This document shows positions 37,633-39,051 of a stretch of 39,051 nt of DNA, piece by piece. The position numbers and the translations under genes were made by a program. The stretch's first letter is position 1. Every line of letters starts with the position of its first letter. The DNA is from Candidatus Onthousia faecipullorum. GTDB lineage: Bacteria > Bacillota_I > Bacilli_A > RF39 > UBA660. The notes under the pieces are model-generated. The model did not search any database. It saw only the letters and a list, made by a program, of their open reading frames with translations, and was not told the origin of the DNA. The stretch is taken from assembly GCA_018715925.1 (NCBI GenBank), contig DVKQ01000059.1:1-39051 (forward strand), given 5' to 3'.

Positions 37633-37912
37633 ATCAAAAACATTGATGAAAAGAAGTAACTATTTCTAATCTTTAAAAGAGAGCTTGTGGTTGGTGGAAA
37701 CAAGTAAAGTGTGGATAGTGAATAACATTTCGGAGTGCTTAAAGAAATTAAGTAGACTAAGCCGGGTGCAGACCGTTACATTTGCTAGATTTGATAGAAT
37801 CGAAAAAGTGATTATAAAGTTAATAATTCCTTTATAATAAATTGGGTGGCACCGCGGAAGACTAGTTTCGTCCCATAGTACTATAAGTATTATGGTATAA
37901 GACTAGTCTTTT
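37633..37912 (+). ncRNA. T-box riboswitch, asparagine type (specifier AAC)
   Basis: Stem I begins around GATGAAAAGAAGTA (37645-37658) and continues with AGAGAGC-TTGTGGTTGGTGG. GAA-T-AAC-ATTTCGGAG (37730-37743) aligns base for base with the specifier region of the well-known glyQS leader (GAA-A-GGC-A...), making AAC (Asn) the specifier, followed by the required purine. The T-box GGGTGGCACCGCGG is at 37844-37857; its TGGC pairs with a tRNA ending GCCA, i.e. discriminator G, as in tRNA-Asn. The terminator stem is AAGACTAGT (37858-37866)/ACTAGTCTT (37902-37910) plus TTATT; the antiterminator partner CGTCCC is at 37870-37875. Uncharged tRNA-Asn should switch the downstream gene on. Confidence 0.85.
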
Positions 37913-37938
37913 ATTATTTATTAGAAAGGATGATTTTT

Positions 37939-38553
37939 ATGTATGAATTAGGAATGATTGATAAGTTATCTAAAAGTTTTAGATTATCAAAAGAAGAATC
38001 TCATCGTATTGAGATGACTAAAGAAGCTTTTCAATTTTGTAAAAAATTAGAGAAAAGGGGAATCCATTTTGATCGCTGTATAAGACATGAAGAAACGACT
38101 GGATGTGTTGATTATAGTAGGTGGAGTTATTGCTTAGGTGATGATTATGCTGTAGGTAAACACTTATTAGTTCAAGAAAGAAAAGGAGATAAGAATAAAT
38201 ATCTAGTTATAACTGATAGTTCTAAACAAGTAGATTTAAAAGCTTTAAAAGAAGAATTATCTTGCCGTAAACTAGAGTTTGTTAGTCCTAGTGATATGGA
38301 GAGTTTAATTAATGCGACACCTGGTAATGTTTCTATATTTAACATGATATATGATGAAAATAAAGAAATTAATTTAATTATAGATGAAGATCTATTAGAG
38401 GCAAGTGAAGTAGCTTTTCATCCCTTATATAATGGTATGAGTATATTTATGCCACTATCTGAATGCTTTAATTTTCTTGAAACTATAGGTAGAAGTGCTG
38501 AAGTTATGGCAATTCCTGCAAAGAAAGAAGAAAAAGTTTTAATAAAACAATAA
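37939..38553 (+). CDS. YbaK/ProX-superfamily aminoacyl-tRNA deacylase-like protein under T-box control
   Basis: 204 residues. The C-terminal ~150 match the YbaK/ProX fold: GDDYAVGKHLLVQ (Lys at the catalytic-region position), KQVDLKALKEELSCRKLEFVSP, TPGNVSIFNMIYDE, LIIDEDLL, and a GFHP-like AFHPLYNGMSIFM. An N-terminal helical extension of ~45 residues (LSKSFRLSKEESHRIEMTKEA) and a Cys/His-bearing segment (FDRCIRHEETTGCVDY) are not in the paralogue at 19882. I chose the ATG at 37939 with GAAAGGA nine bases upstream. It sits 27 bases behind a T-box terminator reading AAC, so it should be induced when Asn-tRNA is scarce. Known family members edit Pro, Ala, Ser or Thr tRNAs; an Asn link is not described to my knowledge. 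Confidence 0.75.
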   Translation: MYELGMIDKLSKSFRLSKEESHRIEMTKEAFQFCKKLEKRGIHFDRCIRHEETTGCVDYSRWSYCLGDDYAVGKHLLVQERKGDKNKYLVITDSSKQVDLKALKEELSCRKLEFVSPSDMESLINATPGNVSIFNMIYDENKEINLIIDEDLLEASEVAFHPLYNGMSIFMPLSECFNFLETIGRSAEVMAIPAKKEEKVLIKQ

Positions 38554-38657
38554 TAATGATATACTGATGCTTATGAAATTGATCAATATATGAAAAAAAA
38601 TCTAAAGGACTAAATATAGACGAAATAATAAATAAATAGATAGTGAGATGATTAATA

Positions 38658-39051
38658 ATGAATAAAAATGCTGAAGAAGTTTTATTAAAATTAGGATATA
38701 GTAAAGAGGATGCAGAAAATATTCTAAATAATGAATCATTAGTAAGTTTTAAGGGAGATACTTTAGTTGTTCGTATAAAAATAAATTTTGAATGTTTAAT
38801 AGCGTTAGGCTATAGTAAAGAAGATGTCTTAAAAATGACAAAACAATTTCCTTCTTTATATGGATTAAGTATAGAAAATATAAAAAAGAAAATAGGAGAT
38901 TTGATGTCACTAGGATATAGTAAAGAAGATGTCCTAAAGATGACAAAACTTCTTCCATCTTTATATAATTTAAGTATAGAAAATATAAAAAAGAAAATAG
39001 AAGATTTAATATTATTAGGTTATACTAAAGAAGATGTCCTAAAGATGACAA
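38658..39051 (+). CDS. mTERF-like helical repeat protein (3' end outside window)
   Basis: 131 residues are visible and the frame is open at the window end. After a degenerate first unit (LLKLGYSKEDAENIL), 35-residue units follow at residues 47-81, 82-116 and 117 onward. Each reads L-x-x-LGYSKEDVLKMTK-xx-PSLY-x-LSIENIKKKI-x-D. This is the mTERF pattern: two helices, the conserved Pro of the 'xxFPxLL' turn, then LS-x-E-N and a third helix. mTERF proteins bind nucleic acid in mitochondria and chloroplasts. The ribosome site is weak (GTGAGATG). It lies 104 bases after the T-box-controlled gene with no terminator between, so it could be in the same transcript. Other superhelical repeat families (TALE-like) share this unit length; mTERF fits the motif better. 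Confidence 0.65.
   Translation, partial: MNKNAEEVLLKLGYSKEDAENILNNESLVSFKGDTLVVRIKINFECLIALGYSKEDVLKMTKQFPSLYGLSIENIKKKIGDLMSLGYSKEDVLKMTKLLPSLYNLSIENIKKKIEDLILLGYTKEDVLKMT
38796..39051 (+). repeat. Near-identical 105-bp coding repeats in the mTERF-like gene
   Basis: Units at 38796-38900 and 38901-39005 and a partial unit from 39006 align without gaps. Long identical stretches (e.g. AGTATAGAAAATATAAAAAA and TATAGTAAAGAAGATGTC) show recent duplication. Differences cluster at repeat positions 2-3, 17-18 and 23. Confidence 0.9.

Follow-up and report, generated by a model that had tools for sequence, protein, structure and literature searches.

A pTERF-like array of mTERF repeats, with an acidic companion gene, in an asparagine T-box operon of Candidatus Onthousia faecipullorum

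The window, that is the whole stretch of DNA analysed here, is an entire contig of 39,051 b (G000:C33) from the 1.41-Mb, 101-contig genome of Candidatus Onthousia faecipullorum. Towards its end, a T-box leader, a gene with an aminoacyl-tRNA editing domain, the remnant of a small gene and the beginning of a tandem-repeat gene follow each other on the forward strand:

37634..37878, + strand: T-box leader with specifier GAAU-AAC-A (Asn) and GGGTGGCACC (fits discriminator G73); RF00230, 138.8 bits
37930..38553, + strand: aminoacyl-tRNA editing-domain gene; PF04073, 66.5 bits, and synteny
38561..38664, + strand: 3'-end remnant of a companion gene, with frameshifts; local DNA alignment with the companion 3' end on contig C54, with gaps of 4 nt and 1 nt
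38658..39051, + strand: mTERF-like (pTERF-like) repeat gene, truncated at the contig end; PF02536, 55.7 bits, open frame, full-length paralogue P0001 on contig C54
38658..38804, + strand: degenerate N-terminal unit (N-cap) of about 49 residues, kept in relatives; unit parsing and alignment
38805..38909, + strand: unit 1 of the array, with Q14, F15, S17, G20 and L21 at the variable positions
38910..39014, + strand: unit 2 of the array, with L14, L15, S17, N20 and L21 at the variable positions
39015..39051, + strand: repeat unit 3, start only, truncated by the contig end

The reading frame of the repeat gene (38658..39050, + strand) starts with ATG at 38658 and stays open as far as the contig end. 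Its regular part consists of 2.35 in-frame units of 105 bp (35 amino acids) with about 86% DNA identity (85.7% between units 1 and 2). Tandem Repeats Finder detects the array at 38795-39051 (period 105 bp, 2.4 copies, 85% matches, no indels) with a score of 374, by far the highest in the window. The tandem repeats described in an earlier sequence-only reading of this DNA are thus real, and the motifs it had listed (LGYSKEDVLKM, PSLY and LSIENIKKKI) are all present in the ORF; its picture of near-identical 35-residue units holds for the 2.35 regular units, but not for the first ~49 residues (38658-38804), which form a degenerate N-terminal unit. The contig very likely stops inside the array because short-read assembly breaks down in such repeats; a search of the rest of the assembly did not find the remaining part of the gene. 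The same genome has a complete paralogue, P0001, on contig C54, with 4 units and a PF02536 score of 92.6 bits.

The best Pfam match of the window fragment is PF02536 (mTERF), with 55.7 bits versus a cut-off of 23.1, and the same family is matched by 20 of 20 relatives; no NCBIfam model matches over its cut-off. A profile of the 20 relatives, searched against the PDB, finds MTERF1 along the entire repeat region (E 4.5e-15) and also a designed 35-residue toroid (9.5e-12). The toroid match, like matches to UBA and RuvA_C, indicates that repeat-profile scores are inflated, so that the evidence from the fold weighs more. The AlphaFold2 model of the closest relative (L004, 7 units; mean pLDDT 94.1) is a solenoid of regular units, helix(10)-short helix(5)-helix(13). 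It shows the architecture characteristic of mTERF proteins, a superhelix whose units each comprise two helices plus a short 3-10-like one. When this model was submitted to Foldseek, PDB ranks 1-17 were all mTERF, led by DNA-bound MTERF1 (TM-scores of 0.59-0.68 for the full-length chains of MTERF1-DNA complexes) and including MTERF3, MTERF4 and a Tetrahymena mitoribosome subunit; a TALE followed at rank 18 (E 7.8e-4, TM about 0.3), and the TM-scores of the designed toroid were 0.23-0.33. The mTERF pattern of P8 and hydrophobic residues at 11, 18 and 25, equivalent to positions 16, 19, 26 and 33 of the units as counted here, is kept in 180, 192, 195 and 195 of 195 units, respectively (at least 92%). 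The first part of the C-terminal domain is one further degenerate unit in the L004 model; searched alone, this domain has no match in PDB or Pfam, and thus provides no independent proof of homology.

The mTERF assignment of the sequence-only reading is therefore supported by the Pfam score, the model and the Foldseek ranking; a solenoid is predicted and the best profile is mTERF, while the two outcomes named beforehand as contrary (no superhelical solenoid; a best profile from an unrelated family) did not occur. By computation, repeat sequence and modelled fold together identify the predicted product of the window gene as an mTERF-fold solenoid of the pTERF kind. RuvA_C, UBA_9 and UBA also exceed their curated cut-offs in the window ORF, via stretches of 16-19 residues; these and other Pfam matches near or above cut-off were rejected, as scores of short stretches are added up over the repeats, a tandem-repeat scoring artefact that could make automatic annotation mislabel such genes.

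Positions within the units were counted from LGY (with Pro at 16), and within-array variation was analysed over 42 arrays. Variation is highest at positions 14, 17, 15, 20 and 21; pairs with nonsynonymous and synonymous differences stand at 331:17 for position 14 and 302:16 for position 17. The sequence-only reading had named positions 2-3, 17-18 and 23 as variable, corresponding to 34-35, 14-15 and 20 in our count: 14, 15 and 20 are among the top five, while 34-35 differ mainly between proteins. The base-reading arginines of human MTERF1 are R162, R202, R350 and R251 (PMC4705650). Mapped to the units, R162 corresponds to position 14, R202 and R350 to position 17 and R251 to position 25; F243 and F322, both mutated in DNA-complex structures, correspond to positions 17 and 20. 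Three of the four positions of this contact set (14, 17, 20, 25) are among the four most variable ones (P = 0.0024). The most variable positions largely coincide with those by which MTERF1 reads or stacks on bases, and this overlap independently supports a putative base-reading surface, short of proving a code. Repeat motif, solenoid fold and base-contact positions are common to MTERF1 (PDB 3MVA) and the bacterial proteins, but the repeats of the mitochondrial protein are degenerate, whereas the bacterial units are near-identical, regular and variable in number. TALE and TALE-like proteins also have units of 33-35 residues, few variable residues in each and recombining arrays, but TALEs vary at the 12/13 pair and the units described here at 14/17/20/21 around a conserved proline, and the fold match is weak. 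A TALE-like reading was rejected on the fold rank (18, after 17 mTERF) and on hypervariability at 14, 17, 15, 20 and 21 rather than 12/13.

Comparison across related genomes, a check proposed together with the sequence-only reading, gave arrays of 2-9 parsed units with the variable positions listed above; the spacing of units is 35 residues in 214 of 224 adjacent pairs. At the Phe locus, the unit number of the first pTERF is 3, 5 or 7 depending on the species, and in the array of locus L037 the units are 100% identical in a two-unit register. Both observations are as recombination would give, and they support the proposal that the array is modular and grows or shrinks. Strong matches are present in 3 of 35 genomes of the genus, and matches in 24 of 291 sampled genomes of the family and in 40 of 385 of the order; none of the 391 other genomes of a phylum-wide sample has one. 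Gut Clostridia MAGs outside this sample carry pTERF-like genes, and searches of phages, plasmids and viral contigs found no relatives. The modules are patchy and chromosomal.

Proteins of this kind have been described by Hu et al. 2024, in the accessible part of their article: pTERF1, encoded in a Clostridia MAG from ruminant gut and made of tandem repeats, binds dsDNA sequence-specifically (ACTNNNAGTC, Kd 1.87 nM), pTERF2 binds a different motif, and about 46 homologues with 3-11 units are catalogued (PMC11417379). Tandem near-identical mTERF units, an origin in gut MAGs mostly of Bacillota and three-helix units in AlphaFold models are common to the proteins of that text and ours; the differences are the unit number (3-11 published versus 2-9 parsed here) and the P8/L11/L18/L25 pattern, which pTERF1 is reported to lack and which the units analysed here keep (PMC11417379). 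The window gene fits the pTERF description, and its assignment to the published family is by description only. The family and its measured DNA binding have been known since 2024; the same part of the article makes no mention of a companion gene, of a T-box/synthetase context or of a match with the MTERF1 contact residues (PMC11417379). Our literature search found no paper connecting mTERF with T-boxes or synthetase operons.

Most pTERF genes adjoin a small gene for a protein of 126-133 amino acids (the companion), often overlapping or adjacent. The companion matches PF02536 at 28-38 bits; its model (pLDDT 93) has three units of the mTERF type, and PDB ranks 1-18 for this model are all mTERF, every one with an E above 0.001. 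It has little internal repetition, and a net charge of -10 to -23, while pTERF arrays are about neutral. On C54, an intact companion 3' end lies at or overlaps the start of P0001 (E 2.6e-9 for this tail versus the companion profile); in the window, the companion survives only as the remnant with two frameshifts. At seven Clostridia-titled loci (L006, L008, L010, L011, L012, L014 and L021), a third gene of 115-165 amino acids (..IAYSEVLEILKHI..) usually adjoins the pTERF gene; it has no Pfam match.

The T-box leader of the window is nearly identical to a leader in genome G017, where the gene order is T-box-asnB-companion-pTERF-asnS. On C54, asnS comes after P0001 and, given the gene order of G017, C33 and C54 very probably hold one single Asn operon with the module inside; the copies on C33 and C54 are either neighbouring genes in tandem or versions of a single gene from different strains. 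Members of the genus that have no pTERF have the Asn T-box directly before asnS or before the editing gene and asnS, or have asnB before asnS: orthologues of the editing gene precede asnS directly in several genomes of the genus without the module, and in several such members the helicase or dnaJ of the window is likewise found upstream of the Asn operon. The window copy is behind the Asn T-box, at the place held by asnS in relatives. This synteny shows the pTERF gene and its acidic companion to be an accessory module that has been inserted into a T-box (Asn) operon, at the position of asnS in relatives. The operon setting, with T-box and asparagine-tRNA synthetase, and the small acidic mTERF-fold partner appear to be new functional clues. 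A separate observation is that the protein encoded at 37930-38553 is a free-standing editing-domain protein (PF04073) under an Asn-type T-box.

Sister modules are found at synthetase loci for Phe, Asp/His, Gly, Ala, Pro, Tyr and Glu. A T-box precedes the module at pheST and hisS-aspS and lies between module and synthetase at glyS and alaS; at the Ala and Gly loci the T-box is thus 3' of the pTERF gene and these pTERFs are outside its control. Modules are also present at proS, tyrS and gltX. Among 34 locus types, an aaRS lies no more than two genes away in 9, where 2.4 would be expected (P = 5e-4), and 5 have a T-box at a distance of at most 1.5 kb, with 0.9 expected (P = 0.002); both P values are approximate, since they are based on a hand-made list of locus types, on gene names assigned by eye from the N-terminal sequence and on a rough gene count (~24 aaRS in 1,350 genes). 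About 25 of the 34 types lack a synthetase this near, and most of the remaining loci adjoin nusB-xse, rnhC, tex, recO and similar genes, or show no clear theme.

At two further loci, a gene flanked by rbgA (ylqF)-like and rnhB-like genes encodes a protein of 200 aa that has the C-terminal domain of pTERF (L075, 5462-6058, - strand; L076, 5216-5812, - strand). In mitochondria, MTERF4 and the RbgA homologue GTPBP7/MTG1 act together in assembling the ribosome and, by analogy, the rbgA-adjacent protein may be a parallel to this pair. Locus L052 (1-1716, - strand; G188:C25) encodes a protein with a different repeat of about 28 amino acids (AHAKLEEIQKIIQSPEFKEHPELFTSETL); this protein ends in a pTERF-type C-terminal domain (E 1.4e-7).

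We consider it probable that the window gene encodes a sequence-specific DNA-binding regulator of the pTERF kind, which is made with its operon and acts locally, the acidic companion being its partner or antagonist. By analogy to the published pTERF1 and pTERF2, the protein would bind dsDNA sequence-specifically, each unit would present residues 14, 17 and 20/21 to the DNA, and gain, loss or shuffling of units would alter the target. If made together with its operon, the protein would appear here when Asn-tRNA is uncharged. Bound to DNA at one or a few chromosomal sites, it could act as a regulator or roadblock, which the companion would assist or antagonise. Against DNA binding speaks the net charge of the array, which is about neutral, unlike that of many DNA-binding proteins. 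The Ala and Gly loci, with the T-box behind the pTERF gene, and the roughly 25 locus types that lack a nearby synthetase also count against this reading.

It is rather unlikely that the protein is instead an RNA-binding factor (for tRNA, rRNA or the T-box leader) that, at its operon, promotes the charging of tRNA, the assembly of ribosomes or read-through of the leader. RNA is bound by MTERF4 and by several mTERFs of plants. Structures of MTERF4 are among the fold matches, synthetase, T-box, nusB, RNase and other RNA genes recur among the neighbours, and the 200-aa protein between rbgA and rnhB has the same C-terminal domain. However, the array differs at each locus, a pattern easier to reconcile with distinct DNA sites than with a single conserved RNA, the hypervariable positions agree with the base contacts of MTERF1 in DNA, and the published relatives, in the accessible part of the report, bind dsDNA at nM (PMC11417379).

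A module for genetic conflict, be it a toxin-antitoxin pair, a defence system or a selfish element, in which the repeat protein and a small acidic antagonist are parked in essential operons, is improbable. Such a module would agree with the patchy occurrence within genus (3/35 genomes with strong matches) and family, with tandem duplicates, with an acidic companion that often overlaps or adjoins and with insertion in conserved operons that have empty sites in relatives; but PADLOC gave no convincing match, phages, plasmids and viral contigs yielded no relatives, and the companion in the window has decayed while the adjoining pTERF frame is still open, which speaks against an obligatory antidote.

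We give hardly any credence to a protein-binding helical-repeat scaffold that resembles mTERF by convergence of a 35-residue helical repeat: profile matches to the designed toroid (9.5e-12), UBA and RuvA_C, with their inflated scores, and the C-terminal domain, alone without PDB or Pfam match, could be read this way, but the toroid fold fits far more poorly (TM 0.23-0.33, compared with 0.59-0.68 for full-length chains of MTERF1), the units retain the canonical mTERF pattern, variability falls at base-contact positions and the companion, with its little internal repetition, also matches mTERF folds only.

The DNA-binding regulator thus remains our preferred reading. A broader proposal, possible but speculative, is that pTERF and its acidic mTERF-fold companion are an unrecognised two-gene regulatory module in T-box/synthetase operons, a reprogrammable DNA (or RNA) reader that would be made on amino-acid starvation and tuned by the companion. 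The pTERFs may bear on the origin of organellar mTERFs, and are a candidate second reprogrammable DNA-reading repeat besides TALEs. The operon context suggests a first testable role (at a defined operon, under amino-acid or tRNA stress), the companion is a likely partner, and the variable positions that match MTERF1 provide a concrete hypothesis for a recognition code.
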